From Verrucomicrobiota bacterium (lineage in GTDB: Bacteria; Verrucomicrobiota; Verrucomicrobiia; Chthoniobacterales; JAFAMB01): DNA of 64,000 bases. The translations under genes and the position numbers were made by a program. The notes under the pieces are model-generated. The model was not told the origin of the DNA. It saw only the letters and a program-made list of their open reading frames with translations, and ran no database searches. The DNA is taken from the NCBI GenBank assembly GCA_019247695.1, contig JAFBAP010000117.1:1-64000 (forward strand). The letters run 5' to 3'. Of the stretch, positions 296 to 19,326 are shown in pieces (position 1 is the first letter of the stretch; the number at the start of each line of letters is the position of its first letter).

Positions 296-373
296 TTGGC
301 CCTTCGGGCCGTAAGGCGGTGGCGCTATTGCAAATTACTTGCAAAATGGCCGTGGCCCTCTACGCTTTTTTGC

Positions 374-1264
374 GTGAGGTTTGCGCTGCTGGTTTGCTGC
401 TGCCTTTTGGTTTCTAAGCCTGCGGGCCGGGCGGAGGCCGGCTTTAGAGTGGCCTCGTTTTCGACGGTGCTCAGCGAGGTGGCGGAAAGGGTCGGGGGCG
501 AGCACGTGACGGTGGCAGCGCTCGTTAAACCCGGCATTGACCCGCACGAATACCAGCCGACGCCGGGCGACCTCGCCCAGGCAAGCGACGCCCGGCTCAT
601 TCTCATTTCGGGCAAAGGGCTGGAGAATTACCTCGACAAGATCGAACAGGTCACCGGCGGCAAGGTCGAGGTATTGGCGGTGGGTGATCAACTGCCTTCG
701 CTGACCCTTAGACCCGGCGATCAAACGGGCAGCGCAGGCGCCCCCGCCCTGGATCCGCACTGGTGGAACAGCGTTCCCAACATGATCCGGGCCGCCGGGG
801 TTGTTGCGGACGGTTTTGCGCGGCTCGATCCTGCGCACGCCGCGGATTACGAACGGAACGCGTCGGCGTACCGCGCCGACCTGTCCGCGCTGGATAAAGA
901 ACTGAGGCGGAAGATTACTCAACTGCCGCGAGACCGCCGGATCCTGGTCACGTCGCACGATGCGTTCCAATATTTCGCGGCGACCTACGGGTTTACGATC
1001 GCCAGCATCGAAGGGGTGAGCACCGAGACCGAGCCGTCGAACAAACACGTGAGCGAACTGATTGAGGAGATCAAGCGGCGCGGGGTCAAGGCCATCTTCC
1101 TGGAGAGCACGCTCAACCCCAAGGTCAGCCGGGAAATTACCCGTGAAACCGGCGCAACTATCGGCGGTACATTGTACGCCGACGGGTTAGGGGAGGCAGA
1201 CGCGGCAACGTACGCCGGCATGATGCGCCACAATGTGGATACCATCGTCGACGGGTTGAAATAA
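374..1264 (+). CDS. Metal ABC transporter substrate-binding protein (ZnuA/TroA family)
   Basis: Secreted or periplasmic cluster A-I solute-binding protein that delivers a divalent metal, probably zinc or manganese, to the permease and ATPase encoded just downstream. Visible signatures are the N-lobe metal loop DPHEYQPTPGDL, a second ligand motif DPHWWNS, the third His in SHDAFQYF, and a C-lobe segment ESTLNPKVS. His rather than Glu at the third ligand position favours a zinc-type site; the long His-rich loop of many ZnuA proteins is absent. The open frame extends to a TTG at 296, but its first residues are encoded by dispersed repeat DNA. GTG at 374 gives a short signal peptide (MRFALLVCCCLL...AEA) and is preferred, although no clear Shine-Dalgarno precedes it. 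Confidence 0.88.
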   Translation: MRFALLVCCCLLVSKPAGRAEAGFRVASFSTVLSEVAERVGGEHVTVAALVKPGIDPHEYQPTPGDLAQASDARLILISGKGLENYLDKIEQVTGGKVEVLAVGDQLPSLTLRPGDQTGSAGAPALDPHWWNSVPNMIRAAGVVADGFARLDPAHAADYERNASAYRADLSALDKELRRKITQLPRDRRILVTSHDAFQYFAATYGFTIASIEGVSTETEPSNKHVSELIEEIKRRGVKAIFLESTLNPKVSREITRETGATIGGTLYADGLGEADAATYAGMMRHNVDTIVDGLK

Positions 1265-1684
1265 ATGCGAGGAGCCCCGTTAATTGAGGCGTTGGTTGCA
1301 TTGGGGGCGCTGCTGTTGCTGGCCCTGCCGATCCGGGAGCTGACGGCGCGGTCCCGGTCGAAGCCTGCGCCGGCCGTACAGGCGGCTCCGGACAGATCGG
1401 TGCGCCTTGAAATAACAGGAACGGCCTCTGCATTCGAATTCAACGTCAGTTACCTCGGCCGGGAGATCTGGTCGGGGACAGGTCACCAGGCGCCGAGCCA
1501 CGCCGATTTCAAGCTGCCGGTGCCGAAAGAGGGAATTGACCTTGAGGTCAGCGCCCGGTTTCCTGATGCGAGCCTGCACGCGTTGCGGCTCACCTTCTCG
1601 ACCGGGGACGGGATCGGAATCGAGCGTTCGGCCTGGGGCACGGATACCTTGGACGAGGTGCTTACGTATCAACCGGCCCCATGA
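1265..1684 (+). CDS. Small membrane-anchored protein of the metal importer operon
   Basis: Unrecognised 139-residue protein that begins directly after the stop codon of the binding protein. Residues about 7-25 form one hydrophobic segment (LIEALVALGALLLLALPI), followed by a polar, probably beta-rich extracytoplasmic domain of about 100 residues with no recognisable catalytic motif. Its position inside the importer operon suggests an accessory role, for example metal delivery or a partner of the binding protein, but nothing in the sequence shows this. It lacks a metal-binding Cys/His cluster. Confidence 0.7.
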   Translation: MRGAPLIEALVALGALLLLALPIRELTARSRSKPAPAVQAAPDRSVRLEITGTASAFEFNVSYLGREIWSGTGHQAPSHADFKLPVPKEGIDLEVSARFPDASLHALRLTFSTGDGIGIERSAWGTDTLDEVLTYQPAP

Positions 1685-1714
1685 GCAACGTAACCCAGGA
1701 ACAAGTCAGGTAAG

Positions 1715-2461
1715 ATGCCCGATCACCGCCTTCTCGTTCGAGATTTGACCGTCGCGTACCGCCGCGTTCCGGCGATCCATCACGTTGGTTTCGAGATCGC
1801 CTGCGGGCGGTGCGTCGGCCTGTTAGGACCGAACGGCGCGGGCAAAACCTCGCTTTTCAAAGCGCTCGTGGGACTGCTCCCGATGGAAACGGGCTCCGTG
1901 GAACTGCATGGGCATTCCGGCAAAGCCGGCCGAAACGCGATTGCGTACCTGCCCCAGCGCAGCCAGGTCGACTGGGATTTTCCGATCACCGTGCGCGGCC
2001 TGGTGGAAATGGGCCGCTACCAAGCCCTGGGGCCCTGGGGACCTTTCAGCGAACGGGACCGGCAGGCGGTTGACCATTCCCTGGCGGAGATGGAATTGGC
2101 GAACCTGAGCGAGCGCCAGATCAGCGCCCTGTCCGGGGGCCAACAGCAGCGGGCGTTTCTCGCCCGGTCGCTCGCGCAGGAAGCGCACGTTTTTCTGCTC
2201 GACGAACCGTTTACCGGCCTGGACCGGCCGTCCCAGCAGGTCCTGGTGCAGGTCATCCATAAACTCGCGGCGGCAGGGAACCTGGTGATTGCGTCGCATC
2301 ATGACCTGAAGAGTGTGCCGGATCTTTTCGATGAGGTCATTTTCCTGAACGGTGAGCTCATCGCCTATGGTCCGACCGCGGTGACCTTCAATAAACAAAA
2401 CGTCGAGCGCACGTTTGGAACCCCGCCCTTTGCAGGAGGAGACGGCCACCATGGATGGTAG
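1715..2461 (+). CDS. Metal ABC transporter ATP-binding protein (ZnuC/MntB-like)
   Basis: Cytoplasmic ATPase that powers the metal importer. The 248-residue protein carries Walker A GPNGAGKTS at about residues 38-46, a Q-loop in LPQRSQVDW, the ABC signature LSGGQQQR, Walker B HVFLLDEPFTGLD, and the H-loop His in IASHHDL. Length and motif spacing are those of the ZnuC/MntA/TroB group. The gene ends 11 bases inside the permease gene, so translation of the two is probably coupled. The substrate cannot be told from this subunit alone. Confidence 0.93.
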   Translation: MPDHRLLVRDLTVAYRRVPAIHHVGFEIACGRCVGLLGPNGAGKTSLFKALVGLLPMETGSVELHGHSGKAGRNAIAYLPQRSQVDWDFPITVRGLVEMGRYQALGPWGPFSERDRQAVDHSLAEMELANLSERQISALSGGQQQRAFLARSLAQEAHVFLLDEPFTGLDRPSQQVLVQVIHKLAAAGNLVIASHHDLKSVPDLFDEVIFLNGELIAYGPTAVTFNKQNVERTFGTPPFAGGDGHHGW

Positions 2462-3389
2462 CGCGGGCGCGATCCTGCTGGAACCGTTCCGGCACGATTT
2501 TATGCAGCGCGCCTTCCTCGGGTGCGTGCTGATCGGATTTACAAACGGCGCCCTGAGCATTTTCATCGTGCTGCGCCGGTTGGCCCTGATGGCTGACGCG
2601 ATGGCGCATTCGCTGCTGCCCGGGTTAGCCCTCGCGCTGATCCTGTTCGGGGTTGCGCCGGGTTCGCTGTTTTTCGGCGCCCTGGTGGCGGCGCTGCTGG
2701 TGGCGCTGGGGACTCAGCTTATTTCCGGGAGCTCACGGATAAAGGAGGACACATCGCTCGGTCTGCTGTTTGCCTGCTCGTTCTCGCTCGGCCTGGTGCT
2801 GCTGAACTTTGCGCCGGTACGGGTGGATATCAGCCACTACCTGTTCGGCAACATCCTCGGACTCAGCGACGCGGACCTTTGGACCACGCACGTCATCAGC
2901 ATTATCTCCGTCCCGACGCTGGTGGCCTTACGCCGGCCCTTGCTGCTGATGATGTTTGAACCTTCGGTGGCCGCGAGCCAAGGCGTGCCCGTAAGCGGGC
3001 TCCGCTATCTTCTGATGGGGATCCTGGTGCTTTCCATGATTTCATCGCTGCAAGCGGTCGGGGTCGTGCTGGCCCTGGGCATGTTGATCGCTCCGGCCGC
3101 GACCCTCTACCTGGTGACGGATTCGTTTACCGTGATTTTCTGGGCGGCAGGCTTTTTAGGGGCGTTCGGGTCGTGCCTTGGGCTTTGGTTTTCCTACCTC
3201 TTGAATCTGCCGTCGGGCGCCTGCATTGTCCTGGTTCTGAGCGGTTTCTTCCTGCTGGCGTACGTTTTCAGCCCGCGCTACGGGCTCATCACCAAGTTCC
3301 TGCGACGGCAGCACCTTCATGAGGAATCATTGGCGCGGTGGCGCCGGCAGGGCGAAGCCGGAGAGGGCTCAGGGGACCGCCAGGCCTGA
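2451..3389 (+). CDS. Metal ABC transporter permease (ABC-3 family)
   Basis: Integral membrane permease of the zinc/manganese-type importer. About nine hydrophobic segments are visible (for example FLGCVLIGFTNGALSIFIVLRR, LLFACSFSLGLVLLNF, LVLSMISSLQAVGVVLALGML), with the family-typical LRRLALMADAMAHSLLPG loop near residue 45 and the GVVLALGMLIAPAAT segment that contacts the ATPase. The frame is open from a TTG at 2415, but ATG 2451 has a strong Shine-Dalgarno (AGGAGG, 2434-2439), so that start is used. It overlaps the ATPase gene by 11 bases. The C-terminus is charged and basic. Confidence 0.92.
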   Translation: MDGSAGAILLEPFRHDFMQRAFLGCVLIGFTNGALSIFIVLRRLALMADAMAHSLLPGLALALILFGVAPGSLFFGALVAALLVALGTQLISGSSRIKEDTSLGLLFACSFSLGLVLLNFAPVRVDISHYLFGNILGLSDADLWTTHVISIISVPTLVALRRPLLLMMFEPSVAASQGVPVSGLRYLLMGILVLSMISSLQAVGVVLALGMLIAPAATLYLVTDSFTVIFWAAGFLGAFGSCLGLWFSYLLNLPSGACIVLVLSGFFLLAYVFSPRYGLITKFLRRQHLHEESLARWRRQGEAGEGSGDRQA

Positions 3390-3457: not shown

Positions 3458-3754
3458 CTACCCGAGGTAAACGACGTCATTCGCCCCGTCACGCACCGAA
3501 ACCGAGTTTCCCGCATTGGCCAGCCGCAGCACCAGTTTGCGGTCGCCTTCGAACCAAATTTCCATGCTGAGATCCTCTTCCAGCACCTGACGGACTTTGG
3601 AGAGCTTCTCGATGCCCGACGCAACTTTGGCCTCGGCATGAATGCGCATGACCAGCCCGTCCTGGAAAACAACGGTTACCGTCGTCTGTTCTTCCTCGAT
3701 GCTCGTGACGGCGCGACCGCGCACGAGGTCGGTCAGATCTGCGTTCTGCCTCAT
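3458..3754 (-). CDS. Conserved-looking small cytoplasmic protein, function unknown
   Basis: 98-residue soluble protein with no transmembrane segment and no recognised domain. The sequence alternates short beta-like stretches (TTVTVVFQDGLVMRIHAEAKV, MEIWFEGDRKLVLRLA) with an amphipathic helix (SGIEKLSKVRQVLEEDL), which suggests a compact alpha-beta fold. It lies tail-to-tail with the metal importer. Several longer open frames on the plus strand across the same bases have biased composition and no start context and are treated as shadows. Confidence 0.6.
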   Translation of the reverse strand: MRQNADLTDLVRGRAVTSIEEEQTTVTVVFQDGLVMRIHAEAKVASGIEKLSKVRQVLEEDLSMEIWFEGDRKLVLRLANAGNSVSVRDGANDVVYLG

Positions 3755-3769
3755 GATGTCCGAAACGAA

Positions 3770-3797
3770 GGCGCCCGGCAGATCAACACCGGGCGCC
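3770..3797. terminator. Perfect hairpin, probable terminator
   Basis: A 9-bp perfect stem (GGCGCCCGG / CCGGGCGCC) with a 10-nt loop. It lies between two minus-strand genes, downstream of the gene at 3889-4029 and just upstream of the start of the gene at 3754. On the plus strand it is followed by TTT, on the minus strand by TTCGTTT. Either strand could use it; the minus-strand reading ends the small membrane protein transcript. Confidence 0.55.
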
Positions 3798-3888
3798 TTT
3801 AAAACTCCACCATCCGATCTTTCGAGGGGGAACCTGAGACCGGCTCAAACTACTCTAATTCGCGGCGAGCAAGACAGGAACCCTCCCG

Positions 3889-4029
3889 CTACAAACGGCC
3901 TTGCACCAGCCGCACCACGGCCACGATTAAAGCAATGACCAACAGAATGTGGATCAACGACCCTGCTACGTGCGTCGCGAGGCCTAACGCCCAGAGAATG
4001 ACGAGAATGACGACGATGGTCCAGAGCAT
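3889..4029 (-). CDS. Small two-helix membrane protein, lmo0937 type (DUF5670-like)
   Basis: 46-residue inner-membrane protein consisting almost entirely of two hydrophobic helices, MLWTIVVILVILWALGL and IHILLVIALIVAVVRLV, ending in QGRL. This arrangement and the motif IHILLVIA are typical of the widespread lmo0937-type membrane proteins, often linked to stress, whose role is unknown. The frame is open 51 bases further upstream, but the ATG at 4029 matches the family length and has an AGGG-like ribosome site upstream. Confidence 0.75.
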   Translation of the reverse strand: MLWTIVVILVILWALGLATHVAGSLIHILLVIALIVAVVRLVQGRL

Positions 4030-4645: not shown

Positions 4646-5021
4646 CCGTCATCGGCGCTGATCCACGTAATTTGTGAATCCCGTCGGCCGGACTGCCGGG
4701 GACCGTGTCCGGCGTTCGGAGCACCAGCGTGAGGGCGGACGCCGGCCTGCACCCCGGATCCAAAAGAAATGTGTGTTGCCGCCGTGGTCGCCGTGCTCCG
4801 CCGTGGCGCCGTGTGATCCTTTTCCGCCGTGACCACCGTGTGACGAGAATCGACCAACCCGGCTAAGATCAGCCGTTGATTTCGTGAATCGCCATAACCG
4901 GTCCGAGTGCGGCTGCAGGAGGCCAAGGACCGGACTGCTCGGGTACGCCACCTGGCACGGCGGCTGCTCGCGTCGACTCCGAGTAATACTCGGATACGAA
5001 ATCGTGATACCGGAAACGCAC
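4646..5021. promoter_or_regulatory. Leader and upstream region of the guanidine/urea-carboxylase operon
   Basis: No gene is visible. The left part carries an inverted family B repeat (4774-4846). Closer to the operon there is a 7-bp perfect stem CCGGTCC (4898-4904) with GGACCGG (4927-4933), and a 17-nt palindrome TCCGAGTAATACTCGGA at 4978-4994, 27 bases before the first start codon. The element CCGGTCCGAG resembles one conserved block of the guanidine-I (ykkC) riboswitch, but the other blocks were not found. The palindrome is a candidate operator for the NikR-like regulator of the same operon (inference). Confidence 0.45.
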
Positions 5022-6008
5022 ATGATCAAATCGATGCAGACAACGGTTCGCAAATGGCTGGCGGGCCTGGCCACCTTGGCCGCGTTAGCGGCTACGCTCC
5101 AGGCTGAACCCCTGAAACTCGGGTACAGCGACTGGCCGGGATGGACGGTCCTGGAAATCGCCAATCAAAAAGGCTGGTTCAAGGAAGCCGGCGTTGTCAC
5201 CGACCTGGTCTGGTTCGATTATTCGGCTTCTCTCGACGCGTTTTCTGCCGGCAAGATCGACGGCGTTACCGTGGTTCCGACCGACGCCTTGGTGCTCGGA
5301 GCGTCCGGCAACAAGAGTAAGTTGATCGCGATCACGGATTACAGCGATGGCAATGACAAAATCATCGGGGAACCGGGCATTGATTCGATCGCGGCGCTCA
5401 AGGGGAAGAAAGTCGCGGTTGAGTTCACCCTGGTCGATCACCTGCTCCTTCTGCAGGCGCTCAAGGTCAACGGCATGTCGCAATCGGACGTCGTCCTGGT
5501 TAACACCCCAACCAATAACACGCCCCAGGTCCTGGGGTCCAGGCAGGTCGCGGCGGTTGCGGCCTGGTACCCGGTTGCAGGGCAAGCGCTGAAGCAGGTG
5601 CCGGGATCAAAGCCGCTATTTACGAGTCACGAAGCGCCGGGATTGATCTACGACGTGATCGCCGTCAGCCCGACGAGTTATGCGCAGCACAAGGCTGACT
5701 GGGCGAAAATCGTAAAAGTTTTCTACCGCTGCGTTGACTACCTTCAGAGCCCGGCAACGCACGATGACGCCATCAAGATCATGGCTGCCCGGGTTGGGGC
5801 CGACCCTGCCGAATACGCGAAAAACCTTCCCGGAACCCATTTCATGACCATACCGGAAGCCAAGAAGGCGTTTACGAAGGGGCCCGGGCTGGACTCAATT
5901 TACGGGTCGATGGAGAACGGAAACAGGTTTAACCTGGACAACAAGGTCTACCAGCAAACGCAAAATCCCGCGAGTTACCTGGCGCCCACCATTACCAACG
6001 AGTTGTGA
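5022..6008 (+). CDS. ABC transporter substrate-binding protein of the urea/guanidine carboxylase locus
   Basis: Secreted NitT/TauT-family binding protein that starts with a cleavable signal peptide (MIKSMQTTVRKWLAGLATLAALAATLQAE). Motifs typical of the carboxylase-linked subgroup are LGYSDWPGWTVLEIANQKGWF at the mature N-terminus and VWFDYSASLDAFSAGKIDGV. ATG 5022 (or 5034) places the signal peptide at the N-terminus; the open frame upstream is leader DNA. It is followed by its permease and ATPase. In related loci this importer was annotated for urea. The downstream DUF1989 genes suggest that the ligand is guanidine or a related amidine, but the ligand pocket cannot be read from sequence by eye. 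Confidence 0.88.
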   Translation: MIKSMQTTVRKWLAGLATLAALAATLQAEPLKLGYSDWPGWTVLEIANQKGWFKEAGVVTDLVWFDYSASLDAFSAGKIDGVTVVPTDALVLGASGNKSKLIAITDYSDGNDKIIGEPGIDSIAALKGKKVAVEFTLVDHLLLLQALKVNGMSQSDVVLVNTPTNNTPQVLGSRQVAAVAAWYPVAGQALKQVPGSKPLFTSHEAPGLIYDVIAVSPTSYAQHKADWAKIVKVFYRCVDYLQSPATHDDAIKIMAARVGADPAEYAKNLPGTHFMTIPEAKKAFTKGPGLDSIYGSMENGNRFNLDNKVYQQTQNPASYLAPTITNEL

Positions 6009-6051: not shown

Positions 6052-7080
6052 ATGGCGAATCACGACCGGCTCGGCTTGAAAGAACCGCTTTCGGAACGCA
6101 CGCAGGTATTCCTTACCTTTCTCTCATTTGCGGTTCCGGTCCTGGTCTGGTGCGCAGTCAGTTACATCCCGTGGCTCTGGCATCCGGTGGTCAAAGTCAC
6201 GAACATAGGCTCCGTCGACTATTTCGTGGAAGGAATGGAAGTTCCCTGTGCGGAATTCGATCAGCAGGCGGCGAAGGCGAAGGCGGAAGGGGGCGATCCG
6301 CCGCAAGGTGACCGGGTGAACCCGGCTTACCTGCCGGCGCCGCACGAGGTGGTGCGCGCCTTTTACACGGCGTTCACGACGCCGCCCCGTTTACCGAACG
6401 AGCCGTGGCTGCACCAAAGCCTTGGGCACAGCATCCGGACGATCCTGCTCGGATTCCTGATTTCGTCCGTGATCGGGGTGCCGTTGGGGATCCTGTGCGG
6501 TGCGTACCGCTTTTTTTCACGGCTGCAGGAACCATTCATTGAATTCTTCCGGTACCTGCCTGCACCTGCTTTCGGCGCGCTCTGCGTCGCAGTTTTGGGA
6601 ATTGAGGACGGGCCAAAGATCGCGATCATCTTTATCGGCACGTTTTTCCAGCAGGTGCTGGTGATTGCCAACACGGTGCGCAAGGTAGATCCTACCTTGA
6701 TCGAGGCCGCGCAAACCCTGGGCGCGAAAGGCGGGCAACTGGTCACCCAGGTGATCGTCCCCGCGACGATCACGGACATTTATACCGACATGCGCATCCT
6801 GCTCGGTTGGGCGTGGACTTACCTGATCGTCGCCGAGGTAGTCGGAACGATGTCAGGGATCACCTTCTTCATCAACCAGCAGGCGCGCTACCGGAATTTC
6901 GACAACGTTTACGCGGCGATCATGATGATCGGCATCATCGGGCTGACGAGCGATTTCCTCCTGGCCTGGCTCGGGACCAAGCTCTTTCCCTGGAAACGGC
7001 GGCGTTCCGCGGCGGCCGGGCGGTCCCGCTGGTGGGCCAGGCTCTGGCCCAAGGCGGTTCCCGTGCCGGATACTCCCTGA
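6052..7080 (+). CDS. ABC transporter permease (NitT/TauT type), carboxylase-linked
   Basis: Inner-membrane permease of the same importer, 342 residues. It has an N-terminal membrane segment (VFLTFLSFAVPVLVWCAV), then an unusual extracytoplasmic insert of about 80 residues (about 45-125), then the BPD_transp_1 core with the ATPase-coupling EAA loop EAAQTLGAKGGQLVTQVIVPA. The insert is longer than in SsuC/TauC and is characteristic of the carboxylase-linked permeases. A strong GGAGG at 6041-6045 precedes ATG 6052. The C-terminus is basic and cytoplasmic. Confidence 0.9.
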   Translation: MANHDRLGLKEPLSERTQVFLTFLSFAVPVLVWCAVSYIPWLWHPVVKVTNIGSVDYFVEGMEVPCAEFDQQAAKAKAEGGDPPQGDRVNPAYLPAPHEVVRAFYTAFTTPPRLPNEPWLHQSLGHSIRTILLGFLISSVIGVPLGILCGAYRFFSRLQEPFIEFFRYLPAPAFGALCVAVLGIEDGPKIAIIFIGTFFQQVLVIANTVRKVDPTLIEAAQTLGAKGGQLVTQVIVPATITDIYTDMRILLGWAWTYLIVAEVVGTMSGITFFINQQARYRNFDNVYAAIMMIGIIGLTSDFLLAWLGTKLFPWKRRRSAAAGRSRWWARLWPKAVPVPDTP

Positions 7081-7125: not shown

Positions 7126-8028
7126 ATGTCGTTGAGCGATCTTGAACTGCCTGATTATCGCGCCCAGTCGCCTGAGGTGGCGGCGCGGTTCGCGCGGATC
7201 CGGGAACGGCCCGTAATCCTGAGCGTCCGGGACCTGTGCAAATCGTTTGCGGCGGACGACCGGACCCACGTGGTCCTTGACCGGGTGTCGCTGGACATTC
7301 ACCGGCGCGAATTCATTTGCGTCATCGGGCCCTCCGGGTGCGGCAAGTCGACTTTTCTTCGCATCGTGGCCGGGCTGGATCGGGCGACCGGCGGCGACGT
7401 GCTGCTGGACGGCAGGCCCGTCTTCGGCCCCGGGCCGGACCGCGGCATGGTTTTCCAGGGCTACACCCTTTTTCCCTGGCTTACCGTCAAGCAGAACGTC
7501 ATGTTCGGCTTGCGCATGAGCGGCAAACCGACGCAAACCCAGCAAGGGGAAGCCAGCCAGTGGCTCGAGATGGTGGGTCTGAGTAAGTTTGAGAAATCCT
7601 ACCCGCACGAACTATCCGGCGGGATGAAACAGCGGGTCGCAATCGCTCGCGCGCTTGCGAACGAACCGCGCATCCTGATCATGGACGAACCGTTCGGAGC
7701 GCTTGACGCGCAGACGCGCGCCCAGATGCAGGGCTACCTTCTCCAGATCTGGAAACAAGTCGACGTGACTATCCTTTTTATCACGCATGACCTGGATGAA
7801 GCGGTCTACCTGTCCGATCGCATCCTCGTGATGGGGAGCAATCCGGGCCGGGTGCTCGAGTTTCTTGAAAATCCCGTTCCGCGCCCCCATACGCCGGCGC
7901 AGTTCGTGACGCCGGCATTTCTGTCGCTTAAAGCCCGTTTGGAGCACCTCATCCATCCACCGGTGCAAGTTGCGGAGGACAAACTACCACTCGTGAAACT
8001 TACCCTGGCGGGCGATGACGTCGAGTAA
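7126..8028 (+). CDS. ABC transporter ATP-binding protein (NitT/TauT type), carboxylase-linked
   Basis: 300-residue ATPase of the importer. It has Walker A GPSGCGKST, Q-loop MVFQGYTLFPWLTV, signature LSGGMKQR, Walker B ILIMDEPFGALD and H-loop LFITHDLDEAVY. The C-terminal tail after residue 240 is longer than in SsuB/TauB. Its last 14 bases overlap a possible upstream start of the regulator gene, so all four genes are likely cotranscribed. Confidence 0.92.
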   Translation: MSLSDLELPDYRAQSPEVAARFARIRERPVILSVRDLCKSFAADDRTHVVLDRVSLDIHRREFICVIGPSGCGKSTFLRIVAGLDRATGGDVLLDGRPVFGPGPDRGMVFQGYTLFPWLTVKQNVMFGLRMSGKPTQTQQGEASQWLEMVGLSKFEKSYPHELSGGMKQRVAIARALANEPRILIMDEPFGALDAQTRAQMQGYLLQIWKQVDVTILFITHDLDEAVYLSDRILVMGSNPGRVLEFLENPVPRPHTPAQFVTPAFLSLKARLEHLIHPPVQVAEDKLPLVKLTLAGDDVE

Positions 8029-8092
8029 TACGGAGTGCGGATCGAATGGACAACCTACACCCGACGAGAAGCTTGGTTGGTCTGATATCCGT

Positions 8093-8593
8093 ATGAAAGA
8101 GATCTCCGTAAACGATGCCAGCGCAAAGCGCGGCACCGGCTCCGTCCGGCGCGTGAGCATCTCACTGCCTGAGGACGTCTTTCGCGAGCTGGACGAACTG
8201 GTGGCGGACCGGGGCCTGGAGAACCGTTCGAAAGCGATCGCCGAGATGATTTCCCATTTTGCCCTGAAACGCCGTGAGGCGCAGGGGGACGGCATCATGG
8301 CGGGGATGATTTCCCTGGTTTACGACGCCTCGAAAGGCAACCTTGTTCAACAGTTGTTCGAACTTGAACGCCGGTACCTGAAAGAGGTGATCAGCTCGAT
8401 GCACGTCCAGCTCGAGGAGAATCATCGGATGGAAGTCATGATCGTCCAGGGTCCCGTTGACACCCTGAAGCGAATCACCAACCATATCATCGCCTGCACG
8501 GGGGTGATCTCATGCAAGCTGACCCTGGTTCAGCCGCTGATTCCGCAGGTCCACTTTGCCGGTGGCCGGAGCGAGCGTGCCGTTCCGGTGTGA
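8093..8593 (+). CDS. NikR-like ribbon-helix-helix regulator lacking canonical nickel ligands
   Basis: Two-domain regulator: an N-terminal ribbon-helix-helix DNA-binding motif (VRRVSISLPEDVFRELDELVADRGL then NRSKAIAEMI) and a C-terminal ACT-like NikR domain (MISLVYDASKGNLVQQL, SSMHVQLEENHRMEVMIVQGP, GVISCKLTLVQP). In E. coli NikR the high-affinity Ni2+ ligands are His76, His87, His89 and Cys95. Here only the His87 equivalent (MHVQL) aligns; the others read Tyr, Gln and Arg by my hand alignment. It probably senses another ligand and controls this operon (inference). ATG 8093 fits the family length; an ATG at 8015 inside the ATPase gene would add 26 unremarkable residues. Confidence 0.82.
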   Translation: MKEISVNDASAKRGTGSVRRVSISLPEDVFRELDELVADRGLENRSKAIAEMISHFALKRREAQGDGIMAGMISLVYDASKGNLVQQLFELERRYLKEVISSMHVQLEENHRMEVMIVQGPVDTLKRITNHIIACTGVISCKLTLVQPLIPQVHFAGGRSERAVPV

Positions 8594-8620: not shown

Positions 8621-9355
8621 ATGACAAGCACTTCAACTCCCACAAACGTGCGTCCGTTGTTTACGGAAGGCATTCCCGGGGGCGCCATGTGGTCCATGCG
8701 CATCCCCCGTCACCGTCTCGTCCGGCTGACGGCCCTTGATGCCGGGGCAAATGTTTCCGCCCTCTTCTACAACGCGTTACATCCGCTTGACCGGCTCAAC
8801 CTTCCGGACACGCTCAAGGCGCTGCATACGGCGAAGCTAACCAGGGGCCACATTCTGATGACCGACATGGGCCATGCGCTCGCGTCCATCACGGCCGATT
8901 CGCTCGGCTGGCATGACCCGCTCGGCGGCCACATCAATGCGGCCCAGGTCGCGGCGAAGTTCGGCCTGCATAACTACCAGCGGTACCGGAATGATTTTTA
9001 CCGCAACGCGCGTGACAACTTCCTCATCGAACTCTCCAAGTACGGGCTTGGCCTGCCCGACATCGTGGCGAACGTCAATTTCTTCAGCAAAATCGTCGTC
9101 GGGGACGATGGCCGGATGCAGCTGATTCCCGATCATTGCCCGGCCGGGGCGAGTATCGACCTGCGCACCGACATGGACGTGCTTTTCCTCCTGGCCAACT
9201 GCCCGCACCCCCTGACCGTTGCCGGTGATTACCCTCGCGTGCGCGTCCAGATCGAAATCTTTCCGTGCGACCCGCCCGGGCCGGACGACTACTGCCGCAA
9301 CTTTCGTCCGGAATGCGGCCGGACGCTCGCCCTGACCGAACGACTCTATCTATGA
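8621..9355 (+). CDS. DUF1989 urea-carboxylase-associated protein 1 / carboxyguanidine deiminase subunit
   Basis: 244-residue protein of the urea-carboxylase-associated family 1. Family features are [62 protein letters not shown] and the C-terminal [16 protein letters not shown]. Published work on members of this family assigns the two DUF1989 subunits (CgdA/CgdB) as a deiminase that converts carboxyguanidine to allophanate. With the downstream carboxylase and allophanate hydrolase this completes guanidine degradation. It is cytoplasmic. Its stop codon overlaps the next start (ATGA at 9352-9355), so the two subunits are translationally coupled. Confidence 0.88.
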
Positions 9356-10002
9356 GCACCCTCGTCTACACCGAAAGTAAACTCGTTCCTGAGGACGCGG
9401 TCTACCGGGAAACCATTCCCGCGGGGGACGGCTGGTTCCACCCGGTGAAGGCCGGTCAGAGTCTGCGCATCGTCGACCTGGAGGGAAATCAGGCTGCGGA
9501 CACCTTCTTTTTCAACGAACACGATCCAACTGAGCGTTACAGCGCGCAGGACACAATCCGTGAGCAGGCATCAATCTACCTGACAACCGGCACCAAACTG
9601 ATGTCTAACTTGTGCAACGTGATGCTTACGATCACGGCTGACACCTGCGGGCGTCACGACACGCTCGGGGGCGCCTGCGCGGCCGAGAGCAACATGGTCC
9701 GCTATTCATTGGATAAGCGCTTTATGCACGCCTGCCGGGACACCTTCCTGCTCCAGATGGCGCGTTCGGGTCTGCCGGTAGGCAAACGCGATCTGGCGCA
9801 TAACATTAACTTCTTCATGAACGTTCCGGTGACTCCGGAAGGCGGATTGAAGTTCGACGACGGTGTTTCCGAACCCGGAAAATACGTTGAGATGAAGGCG
9901 GAGATGGACGTGCTTTGCCTGATTTCGAACTGCCCGCAGCTGAACAATCCATGCAACGCCTACAACCCGACGCCTATTCAGGTGCTGATCTGGACCCCTT
10001 GA
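9352..10002 (+). CDS. DUF1989 urea-carboxylase-associated protein 2 / carboxyguanidine deiminase subunit
   Basis: 216-residue partner of the preceding gene, with the family 2 signature [76 protein letters not shown] and the C-terminal [18 protein letters not shown]. The pair is homologous throughout (compare [12 protein letters not shown] with [12 protein letters not shown]), which suggests an ancient duplication giving a heteromeric enzyme. The start at 9352 overlaps the upstream stop. A 217-base gap separates it from the carboxylase gene. Confidence 0.88.
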
Positions 10003-10219: not shown

Positions 10220-13200
10220 ATGTTTTCGAAGGTCCTGATCGCCAACCGGGGGGAGATCGCCCTGCGGATTCTGCGCACCCTGCGCAAACTCGACGTCCGC
10301 GGCGCGACGATACACTCTGAAGCCGAGCCGCTTGCGCCCTGGGTCCGCGAGGCTGATGAAAGTTACTGCGTCGGCCCCGGGCCCGCGCGCGACAGTTACA
10401 TCAGCATCCCGGCGGTTCTTAAAGCGATTCAGGACTCCGGGGCGCAAGCGGTGCACCCCGGGTATGGATTTCTCAGCGAGAACCCTGATTTTGCCGAGGC
10501 GTGCACCTCGGCGGGAATCGCGTTTCTGGGGCCGGCGCCTGAGCAGATCCGCCTGTTCGGCCTTAAACATACCGCGCGCGATCTGGCTTCGAGGAGCGGC
10601 GCGCCCTTGCTGCCGGGCACGGACCTGGTCACGTCGGCGGACGAAGCCGTGGAGCGCGCCCGGACGATCGGATTTCCGGTGATGTTGAAGTCGACGGCGG
10701 GCGGCGGCGGCATCGGGATGCAGGTCTGCGAAGGTGAGGCAGAGTTACGCGACGCCTTTGATCGCGTGCGCCGGTTAGGGCAATCGAATTTCGGGAATGC
10801 CGGCGCGTTCGTGGAGAAATTCGTGGCGCGAGCCCGGCACGTGGAGGTGCAGATCTTCGGTGACGGGACGGGCCGCGTCCTGGCGCTGGGGGTGCGGGAT
10901 TGTTCCCTGCAGCGGCGCAACCAGAAGGTTGTCGAGGAGACTCCTGCGCCTAACCTGCCCGAAGGGGTTGCGAGACAGTTGATGGCGGACGCGGTAGGTC
11001 TGGCGGCCTCGGTAAATTACCGGTCTGCCGGAACGGTGGAGTTCCTGTACGACACGACCGCACGGCAGCACTACTTTCTCGAAGTTAACACCCGCCTTCA
11101 GGTTGAGCATTGCGTGACCGAAGAGGTCATGGGGGTTGATCTGGTCGAATGGATGGTGCGCCTGGGGGCGGGGGACCCCGGTTTCTGGCCGGACAAACCC
11201 CTGGTTCCAGCCGGCCATTCCATGCAGGCGCGAATCTACGGGGAAGATCCGGGCAGAAATTTCCAGCCTTCGCCCGGAGAACTGACGGAGGTCGCCTTTC
11301 CGGCGAACTGCCGGGTCGACGCCTGGGTCGAATCCGGAACGGTTGTGTCTCCGTTTTACGATCCGATGCTGGCGAAGATCATCGTGCATGGTTCTGACCG
11401 CGAGGCCGCGGTGGAACGTCTCCGGCGCGCGCTGGCCGAGACCCGGTTGGCCGGAATTGTCACCAACCTGGAATACCTGCGCGAGGTCACGGCCGAACCC
11501 TTCTTTACGGAAGGCAAAGTCATCACGCGCAGCCTGGCCGATTTCCATTACCATCCGCCCACGGTCCGGGTAATTGCGCCCGGTACGTTTACGACCATCC
11601 AGGATTACCCGGGCCGCATCGGGTACTGGGAGGTAGGAGTTCCTCCGTCGGGCCCGATGGACGACTATGCGTTCCGGCTTGCCAACCGGATCGCCGGCAA
11701 CGACGAGGGCGCCCCGGCGCTCGAGTGCACGGTGACCGGTCCGTCGCTTCATTTTGATGCCGGCACCACCATTTGCGTGGCGGGCGCCGACATGAGGCCG
11801 GAGGTGGACGGCGCGCCGGTCCCGCTCTGGCAACCCGTGCCGGTGCGCGCCGGGCAAGAACTTGAGCTGATCAGCATCACGGGGGAGGGGTGCCGGACCT
11901 ACATCGCCTTTCGGGGCGGCCTGGACGTACCGCTCTACCTTGGAAGCTGCGCCACGTTCACCCTCGGCCAATTCGGCGGGCACGGCGGGCGCGTGCTGCA
12001 CGCGGGCGACCTGCTCTACCTTCGGAAGGAAGGACCGAGGCTGCCGCCGGCCGGTGTACCGGATCCTTCGAGCGTCCGGATCCCGGTCTATACGAACCGC
12101 TGGGAAATCAAGGTGATCTATGGTCCCCACGGGGCGCCCGATTTTTTCACCCCGGGCGATATCGACACGTTTTTTTCAACCGATTGGGTCATTCATTACA
12201 ACTCATCCCGGACCGGGGTACGCCTGATCGGGCCGAAACCGGTCTGGGCGCGTCCGGATGGGGGCGAGGCCGGGTTACACCCGTCTAACATCCACGACAA
12301 TGCCTACGCGATCGGCACGGTCGACTTCACGGGCGATATGCCGATCATCCTGGGTCCGGACGGGCCGAGCCTCGGCGGGTTCGTCTGTCCGGTGACCATT
12401 CGATCGGACGAGCTTTGGAAGGTGGGACAGCTCCGGCCGGGCGACAAGGTGCGTTTTGTGCTGACGGATGCGCAGGGAGACCGGCAGGACGGCGTACCGG
12501 ATTCGGCGATTTTGCGCGCGCCGGAGTTACCGCCGGACCTGCCCCGGGTGGTTTACCGGCCCTGCGGCGACTCCAACCTCCTCGTTGAGTACGGTCCGCT
12601 GGAACTCGATCTCGGCCTGCGCCTGCGCGCTCACGCGTTGATGACGTGGCTGAGGGAACGGCAAATTCCCGGGATCATCGATCTGACGCCGGGTGTGCGC
12701 TCGCTCCAGGTGCACTTCGACCGGCGACGGTGGTCTTTGGAAAGCATGGCCGATCTCCTTGCGGAAGCTGAAAAGCAACTGCCCGACATGGAACACCTCG
12801 AGGTTCCGTCGCGGATCGTCCGCCTCCCCCTCTCGTGGGATGATCCCGCGACGCGGCTGGCCATTGAGAAATACATGCAGTCGGTGCGTAAAGATGCGCC
12901 GTGGTGCCCGAGCAACATCGAGTTTATCCGGCGCATCAACGGCCTGGAATCGATCGACGACGTCCGTGAAATCGTTTTCAACGCCAGCTATCTGGTGCTG
13001 GGTCTGGGAGACGTCTACCTGGGAGCGCCGGTCGCGACTCCGGTCGACCCGCGTCACCGCCTGGTGACGACCAAGTACAATCCGGCCCGGACCTGGACGC
13101 CGGAAAACGCGGTTGGCATCGGAGGCGCTTACCTGTGCGTTTACGGGATGGAGGGTCCGGGAGGATACCAGTTTGTCGGGCGAACCATCCAGATGTGGAA

Positions 13201-13762
13201 CCGCTACCGCGTGACCCCGGTCTTTTCCGAACCGTGGCTCCTTCGTCATTTTGATCAGATAAAATTTTATCCGGTCACCGCCGACAAGTTGCTGCGGGCG
13301 AGGGAGCAGTTTCCTTACGGGCGTTACCCGTTGCAGATAACGGAAACCACCTTCCGTTTGTCTGAGTACCGCAAATTTCTGGCGACCATCGCCGGCGACG
13401 CCGTACGGTTCAAGACCCGGCAGCAAGCCGCCTTTACGGCGGAGCGCGAGCGCTGGGCCGGTTTGCCCGTGGCCTACGAGGCCGAGGCGCAGACGGCCCC
13501 TTCGCCAGGCAGTGAAGGGGAGTTGCTCGAGGGGGCAACGGCCGTGGACTCGCCCGTCACGGCGAACGTGTGGAAGTGCGAGGTGCAAGCCGGCGACCGC
13601 GTCGCCAAAGGACAGACGCTCATCATTCTCGAAGCGATGAAAATGGAGATCGGCGTGGCGGCGCCCTGCGACGGCGCGGTGGCGGCCGTGACGTGCAAGC
13701 CCGGACAGATGGTCATGCCCGGCCAACGCCTGGCGGTCATCGCTCGGGAGATTGAAAACTGA
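10220..13762 (+). CDS. Biotin-dependent urea/guanidine carboxylase
   Basis: 1180-residue multidomain enzyme that carboxylates an amide or amidine nitrogen using ATP and bicarbonate. Order: biotin carboxylase with ATP-grasp (residues about 1-450; SKVLIANRGEIALRI, HPGYGFLSEN, KSTAGGGGIGM, EVNTRLQVEH), KipA/AHS2-like carboxyltransferase half (about 450-760; TTIQDYPGRIGYWEVGVPPS, NIHDNAYAIGTVDFTGDMP), KipI/AHS1-like half (about 775-990), and a biotinyl domain with biotin attachment at about Lys1141 in EAMKME. Such proteins were named urea carboxylase, but those beside DUF1989 genes act on guanidine in published cases. The Asp in GTVDFTGD lies in the region said to separate the two specificities; this needs an alignment. 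Confidence 0.92.
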   Translation: MFSKVLIANRGEIALRILRTLRKLDVRGATIHSEAEPLAPWVREADESYCVGPGPARDSYISIPAVLKAIQDSGAQAVHPGYGFLSENPDFAEACTSAGIAFLGPAPEQIRLFGLKHTARDLASRSGAPLLPGTDLVTSADEAVERARTIGFPVMLKSTAGGGGIGMQVCEGEAELRDAFDRVRRLGQSNFGNAGAFVEKFVARARHVEVQIFGDGTGRVLALGVRDCSLQRRNQKVVEETPAPNLPEGVARQLMADAVGLAASVNYRSAGTVEFLYDTTARQHYFLEVNTRLQVEHCVTEEVMGVDLVEWMVRLGAGDPGFWPDKPLVPAGHSMQARIYGEDPGRNFQPSPGELTEVAFPANCRVDAWVESGTVVSPFYDPMLAKIIVHGSDREAAVERLRRALAETRLAGIVTNLEYLREVTAEPFFTEGKVITRSLADFHYHPPTVRVIAPGTFTTIQDYPGRIGYWEVGVPPSGPMDDYAFRLANRIAGNDEGAPALECTVTGPSLHFDAGTTICVAGADMRPEVDGAPVPLWQPVPVRAGQELELISITGEGCRTYIAFRGGLDVPLYLGSCATFTLGQFGGHGGRVLHAGDLLYLRKEGPRLPPAGVPDPSSVRIPVYTNRWEIKVIYGPHGAPDFFTPGDIDTFFSTDWVIHYNSSRTGVRLIGPKPVWARPDGGEAGLHPSNIHDNAYAIGTVDFTGDMPIILGPDGPSLGGFVCPVTIRSDELWKVGQLRPGDKVRFVLTDAQGDRQDGVPDSAILRAPELPPDLPRVVYRPCGDSNLLVEYGPLELDLGLRLRAHALMTWLRERQIPGIIDLTPGVRSLQVHFDRRRWSLESMADLLAEAEKQLPDMEHLEVPSRIVRLPLSWDDPATRLAIEKYMQSVRKDAPWCPSNIEFIRRINGLESIDDVREIVFNASYLVLGLGDVYLGAPVATPVDPRHRLVTTKYNPARTWTPENAVGIGGAYLCVYGMEGPGGYQFVGRTIQMWNRYRVTPVFSEPWLLRHFDQIKFYPVTADKLLRAREQFPYGRYPLQITETTFRLSEYRKFLATIAGDAVRFKTRQQAAFTAERERWAGLPVAYEAEAQTAPSPGSEGELLEGATAVDSPVTANVWKCEVQAGDRVAKGQTLIILEAMKMEIGVAAPCDGAVAAVTCKPGQMVMPGQRLAVIAREIEN

Positions 13763-13774
13763 AGCCGACTGGTC

Positions 13775-15499
13775 ATGAAACTGGCGATCCCGGCTTTACT
13801 GGAAGGCTACCGCAACAGGGCGTTCACCCCCGAAGATGTGGTCGGCGAGGTTTACCGGCGCCTTGCGGAGCAGAGCGACGGGGCGATCTGGATTTCCGTC
13901 GTACCGCGCGAACAGGCGCTGGAACGGGCCAGGGCGCTGGGGAACGCTTCGCCGGACTTGCCCCTGTACGGGGTCCCGTTTGCGATTAAGGACAACATCG
14001 ATTTCGTCGACTTGCCGACGACCGCAGCCTGTCCGGATTTCGCTTACCGGCCTGAAGGTTCCGCCCGGTGCGTCAGTGACCTGCTCGCCGCCGGGGCGAT
14101 CCCGATCGGGAAAACCAATCTTGACCAGTTTGCCGCCGGATTGGTGGGGGCACGCTCGCCGTATGGGATACCGCGTTCGGTGTTTGACTCCTCCCTGATC
14201 AGCGGAGGCTCGAGTTCCGGGTCAGCCGTTGCCGTCGCGGCAGATCTCTGCGCATTCGCACTCGGCACCGATACGGCAGGGTCCGGGCGCGTTCCCGCGG
14301 CTTTCAACGAATTAACGGGCCTGAAACCGACGCGGGGCCGGGTCTCGACCGCGGGCGTGGTGCCCGCGTGCCGTTCACTGGATTGCGTCTCGATTTTTAC
14401 CAGGACCGCGGCCGAAGCGGAGGCGGTCTTTGCCGTCATCGATCGATTCGATCCCAACGACCCTTACTCGCGTCAACGTCGCGCGCCCGCGGTCCCGGCT
14501 TCCTTTCCCCCGCGCGTGGGCATTCCTGCGCAGCCCGAGTTTTTCGGGAACAAGCCGTACCGGACGGCCTTTGAAGCCGCGGTTGAACGGGTGCGCTTTC
14601 TGGGATGGAACATCAGCGAGATCGATTTTACCCCGTTCCGCGAAGTTGCGGAATTGCTCTACGGGGGCCCGTGGGTGGCCGAGCGCGTGGCGGCGATCCG
14701 GCGGTTTTTCGAGACCCGACCGGAATCACTTCATCCGGTTACCCGCGCCATTTTACAGAACGAGCAAAAATACAATGCCGTGGACGTATTTGCGGCTTTT
14801 GACCGCTTGGCCGCGTTACGGCGGGCGACTCTGCCGGTTTGGGATCGTATCGATGCGATGCTGTTGCCGACGGCGCCGGGCCACTACCGGGTTGAGGATG
14901 TGCTGGACGATCCGGTCGGCCTCAACACCCGCCTCGGTTACTATACGAACTTCGTCAACCTGCTCGACCTTTGTGCCCTGGCGGTCCCCGCGGGCCGGAC
15001 ATCGGACGGATTGCCTTTCGGGATCACCTGGGTAGCGCCGGCCTGGCAGGACGAGGCCCTCGGGCGAATCGGCAAGGCGTGGCTCGGCGAACCTGTTCCC
15101 GACAGCGGCGCCGGAGGAGGGGTCGAACTGGCGGTCGTCGGGGCGCACCTGCGTGGTCTACCCCTGCACCGCGAACTTCAGGAACTCGATGCCCGTTTTG
15201 TGGAGAAGACCCGGACGGCGCCGTTATACCGTCTCTATGCGCTGCCGGGCACCACGCCGCCCAAACCGGGTTTGGTACGTGCCGAGGCCGGAACTGCGGT
15301 CGAGGTCGAAGTCTACCGGCTTTCCCACGACGCCTTCGGCCGGTTTGTAGGCCGGGTCCCGGCGCCGCTTGCGATCGGCACCGTTTTTCTGGCCGCGGGC
15401 CGGGGGGTCAAAGGTTTTCTTTGCGAGTCGGTCGCGGTTTCCAATGCGACGGACATTTCCCACTACGGTGGGTGGCGCAACTATGTTGAGGGATCGTGA
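13775..15499 (+). CDS. Allophanate hydrolase (amidase signature family)
   Basis: 574-residue enzyme that hydrolyses allophanate to ammonia and CO2, the last step of the pathway. The amidase domain has the Lys-Ser-Ser triad: Lys72 in FAIKDN, cis-Ser about 146 in SGGSSSGS and nucleophile about Ser170 in GTDTAGSGR, followed by RVPAAFNELTGLKPTRGRVS. The C-terminal part (about 460-574, VELAVVGAHLRGLPLHRELQ) matches the small allophanate-hydrolase C-terminal domain, so the protein is full length. It starts 12 bases after the carboxylase stop. The gene pair corresponds to the two halves of yeast urea amidolyase, here unfused. Confidence 0.93.
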   Translation: MKLAIPALLEGYRNRAFTPEDVVGEVYRRLAEQSDGAIWISVVPREQALERARALGNASPDLPLYGVPFAIKDNIDFVDLPTTAACPDFAYRPEGSARCVSDLLAAGAIPIGKTNLDQFAAGLVGARSPYGIPRSVFDSSLISGGSSSGSAVAVAADLCAFALGTDTAGSGRVPAAFNELTGLKPTRGRVSTAGVVPACRSLDCVSIFTRTAAEAEAVFAVIDRFDPNDPYSRQRRAPAVPASFPPRVGIPAQPEFFGNKPYRTAFEAAVERVRFLGWNISEIDFTPFREVAELLYGGPWVAERVAAIRRFFETRPESLHPVTRAILQNEQKYNAVDVFAAFDRLAALRRATLPVWDRIDAMLLPTAPGHYRVEDVLDDPVGLNTRLGYYTNFVNLLDLCALAVPAGRTSDGLPFGITWVAPAWQDEALGRIGKAWLGEPVPDSGAGGGVELAVVGAHLRGLPLHRELQELDARFVEKTRTAPLYRLYALPGTTPPKPGLVRAEAGTAVEVEVYRLSHDAFGRFVGRVPAPLAIGTVFLAAGRGVKGFLCESVAVSNATDISHYGGWRNYVEGS

Positions 15500-15672: not shown

Positions 15673-17019
15673 ATGATAACCAATACCACTGCTCCCCGAA
15701 AACCCTGGTACCGGATCCTTTACGTCCAGGTGTTGGTAGCTGTCGCCCTTGGCATCGTGATCGGGTATTTGTTTCCCGGATTAGGCAAGAATCTCAAGCC
15801 GCTCGGCGACGGGTTTGTCAAACTGGTGAAGATGATCATTGCGCCGATCATCTTCTGCACGGTCGTGCACGGAATTGCTTCGATGAGCGACCTGAAACGG
15901 CTGGGACGGGTAGGATTCCGGGCGCTGCTCTACTTTGAAGTTGTCTCGACGTTTGCACTCATCCTCGGGTTGATCATCGTGAACCTCCTGCAACCCGGGG
16001 CCGGATTTAACATCGACGTCAAGACGCTGGATCCGAAGGTGAGCCAGACCTACGCGCAGCAGGCCCATTCTTTAAACCCCACGGATTTTCTCCTGAACGT
16101 CATTCCTAACTCTTTTTTCGAGGGCCTGGTTCACGGCGACATCCTGCAGGTGCTTTTTATCGCGATTCTGTCGGGGTTCGCGATCTCGTTCATGGGCGCG
16201 AAGGGCCAGCCGATTCTTCATGTCATCGAGCAGGCTTCCGAAATCTTTTTCAGGATCATGGGAATGATCGTGAAGGTGGCGCCGCTCGGCGCGTTCGGTG
16301 CGATGGCGTTCACGGTTGGGAGCTACGGCCTGGCTGCGCTGGACAAGCTGGTGATGTTGATGCTCTGCTTCTACCTGACTTCGATTATCTTTGTGATAGT
16401 CGTATTGGGACCGATCACCTGGTTAAACGGGTTTTCGATTTTTTCGTACCTGAATTATATCAAGGAGGAACTGCTGCTGGTGCTCGGGACGAGTTCCTCG
16501 GAAGCCGCCCTGCCGGGTATGCTGGCCAAAATGCGCAGAGCCGGTTGCGCGGAGTCGACGGTTGGGCTGGTCATCCCCGCCGGGTACAGCTTCAATCTCG
16601 ACGGCACGAACATATACATGACGATGGCGGCGATGTTCCTTGCCCAGGCGACGAACACGCACCTTGACCTGGGCCAGCAGATCAGTTTGCTGGTCGTTGC
16701 GATGCTCTCCTCGAAAGGGGCCACCGGGGTAACCGGCGCGGGTTTTATCACCCTGGCCGCTACCCTGGCGATCGTTCCGTCGGTTCCGATCCAGTCGCTT
16801 GCGCTGATCGTCGGGATTGACCGGTTCATGAGCGAATGCCGCGCGTTGACCAACCTGGTCGGGAACGGAGTCGCGACCCTGGTGATCAGCCGGTGGGAAA
16901 AGGAGATTTCGGCCGAGGAACTCAGGGCCAACCTGCGGCATCCGACGACGCTGGTGAGCTTGGCGGCGGAAGAGCAGCCGGTGGAAGAAGCAGCCCCGAC
17001 AAACGTCCGGAGCCATTAG
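15673..17019 (+). CDS. Dicarboxylate/amino acid:cation symporter (DctA/GltP family)
   Basis: 448-residue inner-membrane symporter for C4-dicarboxylates or acidic amino acids with Na+ or H+. Typical landmarks are [12 protein letters not shown] near the N-terminus, [19 protein letters not shown], the re-entrant serine-rich hairpin [36 protein letters not shown], the second hairpin [13 protein letters not shown], and the substrate helix [22 protein letters not shown]. The DctA-type NDGT-like region is LDGTNIYM. It lies 173 bases after the allophanate hydrolase with no clear terminator between, so a shared transcript is possible but unproven. Confidence 0.92.
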
Positions 17020-18633: not shown

Positions 18634-18642
18634 CTTCGTGCT

Positions 18643-19326
18643 ATGCCTACGATCGCTCAAGTGATTCTGCAGATGGAGCAATACTTCAGGTCGAAACAGA
18701 CGACGCAAACCCAGCTGGCGGAACTACGGCCGGAAAATTTCTTCGATTCGACAGCCTACGATAGCCAAAAGCGTGCCTTGGAAGACAGGCTCCGGAGTGA
18801 CCAAAGGAACCTGGAACAGACGCTCGAGCAGTTTGACCGTTTTCCGCCGCGTCATCACATGCGTCACCAGGCAAAGTTGTCGGACTTACATCAAGCCGGC
18901 AACTACGAGGCTTCGGTGTTCATCATGACTAAGTTTCCCGATAAAGGGAGTCCGGAGGCGGATCGGCTCACGCAGATTATCGAGACGGTGAAGAAGGCTA
19001 TCAAAGCGAGCGGTTATGTGCCAAGAATCGCGCAAGGCCCTAAATACTACCGCTGGCTGTGGGACAATGTGGAATTGTATCTGCTCGGGTGCGCACGTGG
19101 GGTCGCAATTGTCGAGGCCAGATATTTGCCCGAGCTTAATCCGAATGTCGCGCTTGAGTGGGGCTGGATGGTTGGGATGGGCCGCGAAGTCCTTTTTTTG
19201 CGGGAGTCGAGCTTTAAACACGACCGCGCGGACTGGGCGGGCCTGCTGAGCAGCTCATTCGACTGGGACGACTACGAGCCGGCTATTTCCACCGCGATCG
19301 CGGAATTCCTGCCCGGCCAGAGATGA
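18643..19326 (+). CDS. Helical region plus TIR-like nucleotide-hydrolase-type domain
   Basis: 227-residue protein. Residues 1-85 are strongly helical and charged (RALEDRLRSDQRNLEQTLEQ), probably an oligomerisation or sensor segment. Residues about 88-225 form a TIR-like/deoxyribosyltransferase-like domain: SVFIMTKFPD, IIETVKKAIKASGYVPRIA, LWDNVELYLLGCARGVAIVE, then NPNVALEWGWM with Glu172 as likely catalytic acid, and VLFLRESSFK. Proteins of this kind occur as effectors in bacterial conflict systems, where related domains degrade NAD+ or nucleotides. That activity is inferred here. It starts 9 bases after the preceding gene and surely shares its transcript. Confidence 0.78.
   Translation: MPTIAQVILQMEQYFRSKQTTQTQLAELRPENFFDSTAYDSQKRALEDRLRSDQRNLEQTLEQFDRFPPRHHMRHQAKLSDLHQAGNYEASVFIMTKFPDKGSPEADRLTQIIETVKKAIKASGYVPRIAQGPKYYRWLWDNVELYLLGCARGVAIVEARYLPELNPNVALEWGWMVGMGREVLFLRESSFKHDRADWAGLLSSSFDWDDYEPAISTAIAEFLPGQR

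Follow-up and report, generated by a model that had tools for sequence, protein, structure and literature searches.

The closest described relatives of the regulator reported here are the NikR proteins of E. coli, H. pylori and P. horikoshii, with which it shares its domain architecture (a ribbon-helix-helix [RHH] domain followed by a NikR_C domain), its fold and the spacing of its predicted operator half-sites. In H. pylori NikR, the β-sheets of the C-terminal domain relay the signal to two lysines of the interdomain interface, Lys64 and Lys140 (PMC9860126). Delta-proteobacterial NikR proteins recognize the operator GTGTTAC-N13/14-GTAACAC, which has the same layout of two half-sites spanning about 27-28 bp overall, but their targets are hydrogenase genes and nikMQO, and their signal is presumed to be nickel (PMC545781). 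CdbA, another DNA-binding protein of the RHH type, has a small molecule, c-di-GMP, as its ligand, although its role is different and it lies outside the NikR-like family (PMC7156744).

On the side of guanidine metabolism, the closest counterpart is the guanidine-I riboswitch (RF00442), which in other bacteria controls the same operons of carboxylase, CgdAB, AtzF and ABC transporter genes and presumably responds to the same signal, but is an RNA, whereas the regulator is a protein. A 2025 review knows of no guanidine-binding transcription factor (PMC12186494). Our survey of the open-access literature (subscription papers being beyond its scope) returned no report linking NikR to guanidine or urea carboxylases, and a NikR-related family of this kind has apparently not been described so far. 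We consider it probable that the members of this family are NikR-derived, nickel-free and dedicated local repressors of guanidine-carboxylase operons, responding to guanidine or to an early product of its degradation, and the family is a good candidate for the long-sought protein sensor of guanidine or of one of its breakdown products.

The regulator gene and its guanidine operon

The window, that is, the whole 64,000-nucleotide stretch of Verrucomicrobiota DNA analyzed here, contains a genuine open reading frame on the plus strand that extends from an ATG at 8093 to a stop codon at 8593, encoding 166 amino acids (an alternative in-frame ATG lies at 8015). Pfam searches identify an N-terminal ribbon-helix-helix domain (RHH_1, 4.1e-7) and a full-length, ACT-like C-terminal NikR_C domain (3.8e-21), and the AlphaFold2 model of the protein, predicted from 16 aligned family members, presents a NikR fold (pLDDT 85.6), in agreement with the first-pass annotation of this DNA, which had described both domains as intact. 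Foldseek pairs this model with NikR structures throughout, and the predicted C-terminal domain superposes on that of H. pylori NikR (PDB ID: 2y3y) with a TM-score of 0.95 at 0.9 Å; in structural alignment, the protein is 34% identical to P. horikoshii NikR. Unlike NikR, however, it scores below the cut-off of all five NCBIfam NikR models (97.9 against 105, 93.9 against 111, 75.3 against 83, 67.1 against 175.45 and 59 against 119).

The regulator gene is placed between an SsuABC-like ABC importer and the genes for CgdA, CgdB, a carboxylase and an allophanate hydrolase, all of them on the plus strand. The importer, a putative guanidine transporter, consists of an NMT1/SsuA-like substrate-binding protein (5024-6008; Pfam NMT1_2, with NCBIfam TIGR03427 below its cut-off), a permease (6052-7080; Pfam BPD_transp_1) and an ATPase (7126-8028; Pfam ABC_tran). 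Downstream of the regulator gene lie the two DUF1989 subunits of carboxyguanidine deiminase, UAAP1/CgdA (8621-9355; NCBIfam TIGR03425) and UAAP2/CgdB (9349-10002; TIGR03424), the carboxylase (10220-13762; TIGR02712) and the allophanate hydrolase (13775-15499; TIGR02713), with TIGR03425, TIGR03424 and TIGR02713 matching above their cut-offs. Aspartates at positions 1330 and 1584 of the K. lactis enzyme serve as the criterion for a guanidine rather than a urea carboxylase (PMC11410670). Aligned to 5i8i, the window carboxylase presents both of them (Asp702 and Asp931, respectively), and its operon is thus, as judged from sequence, a true guanidine-carboxylase operon. The same two residues are found in all 45 readable carboxylases linked to the regulator.

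No nickel gene lies within the 64-kb window, as had been noted for the surroundings of the gene, and the regulator has no genomic link to nickel transport or nickel enzymes, its context being the guanidine operon. A zinc-type metal importer (296-3389), composed of a ZnuA-like binding protein, an ABC ATPase and an ABC-3 permease, ends about 1.6 kb upstream of the operon and carries no NikR-like operator. Elsewhere in the window, the region 17254-19326 contains a gene for a protein that combines MAP3K_TRAF_bd and TPR-S (tetratricopeptide sensor) domains and, after it, one that has no Pfam match, possibly part of a conflict or defense system.

Distribution of the regulator and of guanidine riboswitches

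Searches of 289 genomes of the phylum and of plasmids, together with a CgdB-centered scan of GTDB genomes, identified 48 regulators linked to guanidine operons in the Verrucomicrobiota, the Alpha-, Beta- and Gammaproteobacteria and the Thermodesulfobacteriota; these counts cover the matches of the phylum search apart from its 35 or so weakest. Members are currently annotated as CopG-family or transcriptional-regulator proteins. Within the phylum sample, CgdB is detected above cut-off in 35 genomes, 28 of which carry the regulator, and the sole family member among the other 254 genomes is a truncated fragment (G085). Plasmid pSA1 of Novosphingobium resinovorum (L037) encodes two copies of the regulator, at 9001-9420 and 12543-12977, about 3.5 kb apart.

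Among the CgdB loci, 51 of the 64 that lack the regulator have a guanidine-I riboswitch, compared to only 1 of the 16 that carry it (Fisher p 7e-8, on counts that include related, non-independent operons). In that single locus (L139), the riboswitch (14311-14432) belongs to a separate unit downstream of the operon, and none of the 16 regulator operons is headed by a guanidine-I riboswitch. When independent pairs are considered, the regulator and the riboswitch never appear together (on too small a number of pairs, with a median p of 0.125), and their mutual exclusivity is partly driven by lineage. With strict filters, no guanidine-I riboswitch was detected in the 289 phylum genomes, nor in the 28 regulator-bearing genomes when these were searched again; the window has no Rfam riboswitch match, and its genome presents no guanidine-I, -II or -III aptamer. 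As far as distribution is concerned, these results support the earlier proposal that the regulator is a protein-based alternative to the riboswitch, since it occurs mostly where the latter is absent.

This exclusivity is not absolute, and two loci indicate that protein and riboswitch control can coexist. On a plasmid of Acinetobacter sp. NCu2D-2 (L035), the regulator gene precedes atzF and a guanidine-I riboswitch lies upstream of cgdA, whereas a regulator operon of the Thiotrichales (L129) has guanidine-II elements inside or adjoining it, at 16325-16368 and at about 10675-10724. The Acinetobacter locus also presents a sub-threshold guanidine-II match (30.8 bits, with a cut-off of 32) near a gene for a 2OG-Fe(II) oxygenase, which may be a methylguanidine enzyme. 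In an unexpected place, a verrucomicrobial locus (L044) contains a match to the Rfam 5' ureB small RNA (RF02514, 55.2 bits; 3655-3953, minus strand).

Several CgdB loci carry neither the regulator nor a guanidine-I riboswitch. These comprise L066, L073, L078, L085 and L135 (Acidobacteriota) and seven Verrucomicrobiota genomes (G002, G009, G011, G070, G089, G112 and G211), six of which have three DUF1989 matches. Some of these loci are located on short contigs, and others may be under a third kind of control.

The guanidine operon is a nitrogen-assimilation pathway and residue conservation in the regulator does not single out a guanidine-specific pocket, as would be expected if the protein sensed nitrogen status, or an ammonia-linked metabolite, and repressed the operon when a better nitrogen source was present. 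We deem this unlikely, given that the regulator is encountered almost only with guanidine-carboxylase operons, and not with other nitrogen genes, and that it stands in for a riboswitch specific to guanidine. It is from this operon specificity, and from the trading of places with the guanidine-I riboswitch, that we infer induction by guanidine or by an early intermediate of its breakdown.

A predicted NikR-type operator

In an unbiased count of dyads in upstream regions, the number of unrelated loci exceeded that obtained with shuffled sequences for GTATTA-N16-TAATAC and for GTATGA-N16-TCATAC; the second of these, present in three groups of relatives, is the E. coli-type NikR site. When the pattern GTAT[TG]A-Nx-T[AC]ATAC was scored at every spacing x across 47 loci (threshold of at least 11 of 12 matches), 26 loci were recovered at x=16 and between 0 and 4 at any other value. 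The consensus derived from the relatives, GTATTAC-N14-GTAATAC, has the spacing of NikR operators and is located before the gene encoding the substrate-binding protein, before the regulator gene, or before both. At the same threshold, the motif was present in 11 of 12 regulator operons of the CgdB-centered set, compared to none of 37 riboswitch operons.

In the window, the predicted operator GTAATAC-N14-GTGATAC (4983-5010, plus strand) presents NikR-type half-sites and spacing, measures 28 bp overall with half-sites 21 bp apart, and lies 13 nt before the ATG at 5024, the start codon of the first gene of the operon. Scored with a matrix built from the relatives only, leaving out the window, it is the top site of the 64 kb (17.1 bits, with the second at 9.4), and none of 5000 simulated upstream regions scores as high. 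The complete genome contains five sites with at most two mismatches to the consensus and the reversed-pattern control yields four, so the case for this operator is based on its position and rank rather than on its uniqueness. The first-pass annotation had placed the operator on the dyad TCCGAGTAATACTCGGA (4978-4994), which has perfect 8-bp arms and overlaps the left half-site; this dyad is not common to the relatives, and the unit that they share is that of 4983-5010. A second operator before the regulator gene, suggested by a GTAATAC sequence at 8025-8031, was discarded for want of a partner at the right spacing. A consensus search for a sigma-70 promoter near the predicted operator returned none.

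Canonical NikR genes of the phylum carry GTGTTAC-N14-GTAACAC and GTATTAC-N14-GTAATAC operators, which belong to this class as well, suggesting a mode of DNA binding common to NikR and to the new family. In genomes of the same taxonomic class within the phylum search, no NikR-like match other than the operon-linked protein was returned, and the sites found there are therefore most likely its own. The window genome does encode a second, canonical NikR with an intact His-His-His-Cys (HHHC) set of ligands, whose gene has those for CbiM, CbiQ and an ABC ATPase as neighbors. Nickel control thus has its own gene in this genome, and there may be cross-talk between the two proteins at their operators.

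The lost nickel site and the proposed signal

We mapped the nickel ligands of the window protein in two ways, with HMMER against P. horikoshii NikR and with MAFFT against E. coli NikR, and both alignments gave the same assignment. The residues corresponding to E. coli His76, His87, His89 and Cys95 are Arg93 (8369-8371), His104 (8402-8404), Gln106 (8408-8410) and Arg112 (8426-8428), leaving a single retained ligand in place of the square-planar His3Cys Ni(II) site (His76', His87, His89 and Cys95). The first-pass annotation had likewise reported that three ligands were replaced and only His87 kept; its Gln and Arg assignments hold, but the Tyr that it placed at position 76 is Tyr95, two residues past Arg93, a misassignment that leaves the conclusion of ligand loss standing. 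The histidine of the EENHR segment, which might have occupied the metal site, is His111; it aligns with E. coli position 94 and is not conserved among relatives, so that the loss of ligands stands in this respect too. A C-terminal histidine, considered as a replacement ligand, is found in just 26 of the 48 linked members. Lacking the His3Cys site, the defining feature of NikR, the regulator is best filed as belonging to a distinct, non-nickel group within the NikR_C superfamily.

Ligand loss is consistent among the regulators found next to DUF1989 genes, the comparison that had been suggested for this purpose: Cys95 is missing in all 48 operon-linked proteins, most of which retain one or two ligands, His87 among them in the majority, whereas 40 of the 42 unlinked homologs present HHHC. 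Of the remaining two, L064 is a truncated protein of the new family and L185 a doubtful match with 28% identity. Position 76 is occupied by Arg, Ala, Gln, Leu or Tyr and position 89 by Leu, Phe, Gln, Met, Val or Asn, and the four positions together appear in about 24 combinations. In seven members (L048, L050, L053, L055, L060, L110 and L131), His76, His87 and His89 are kept and Cys95 is replaced by Tyr; these HHHY proteins, which show no clear GTATTAC-type operator, are possibly intermediates in the loss of nickel binding, or may respond to another metal or signal. An HHHT subgroup also retains the three histidines.

The family is further set apart from NikR by two conserved features. Position 102, where canonical NikR usually has Arg or Lys, is Gln in 47 of 47 linked regulators, and both Gln102 and Leu108 are invariant across the family; in the window protein, this Gln is the first residue of a Gln119-Gly-Pro turn (E. 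coli 102-104; 8447-8455). In addition, a C-terminal [LIM]P[PQ][LIVM] tail (LIPQVH in the window protein, 8537-8554), which comes after the last strand of the C-terminal domain, is present in 47 of 48 linked proteins and in none of 41 canonical ones. Tyr60 is retained and Glu97 mostly so. In an unrooted tree of 88 proteins, inferred after removing the ligand columns, the 47 usable linked proteins and the 41 canonical NikRs are split at one branch (support 100/96), a topology under which the family may either descend from canonical NikR or be its sister.

The retention of His87 in most members and of three histidines in the HHHY and HHHT subgroups, together with an operator of the class used by canonical NikR (PMC545781), would also be compatible with a protein that still senses nickel or another metal through an altered site, tying guanidine use to metal supply, for instance when urease or guanidinase is unavailable for lack of nickel. 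Such a role appears quite improbable in view of the universal absence of the cysteine, of the small number of ligands that most members keep, of the unrelated replacements at positions 76 and 89, with no conservation at the former ligand positions, and of the separate canonical NikR in the window genome. Furthermore, the guanidine-carboxylase pathway is not known to include a nickel enzyme. Free drift at the former ligand positions might alternatively denote an autorepressor that acts without any effector, or a NikR copy in decay, setting a basal level, but we give this very little credence, since a decaying copy would not be expected to gain, and conserve across phyla, invariant residues (Gln102 and Leu108), a new tail and operators.

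Returning to a dedicated repressor of the guanidine operon, its tetramer would probably bind the two half-sites at 4983-5010, before the first gene, and most likely repress transcription, as suggested by the position of the predicted operator, which overlaps the likely leader and lies 13 nt ahead of the first ATG of the operon. Guanidine or an early product (carboxyguanidine or allophanate), as the most likely signal, would then release the protein and induce guanidine import and degradation, with the regulator doing the job of the guanidine-I riboswitch. The first-pass annotation had envisaged that the ACT-like domain was repurposed for such an effector. As for the emptied nickel site, the variability of the former ligand positions, which hold no conserved polar replacement, speaks against a conserved new pocket there, and the effector probably binds outside any conserved version of the nickel site. 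The Gln-Gly-Pro turn and the C-terminal Pro tail appear, from their conservation, to be better candidates for the effector site. With somewhat less than even confidence, we propose that this family, which spans the Verrucomicrobiota, Pseudomonadota and Thermodesulfobacteriota, represents the first transcription factor known to sense guanidine or carboxyguanidine, replacing the guanidine-I riboswitch and binding its effector away from the nickel site, perhaps at this turn and the Pro-rich tail.

The predicted operator and the residue map make the question of a protein guanidine sensor directly testable. If the proposal is correct, a metalloregulator fold would have come to respond to an organic metabolite instead of a metal and yet retained its DNA site, a protein and a riboswitch would have traded places at one and the same operon, and proteins now annotated in general terms would gain a specific functional name.
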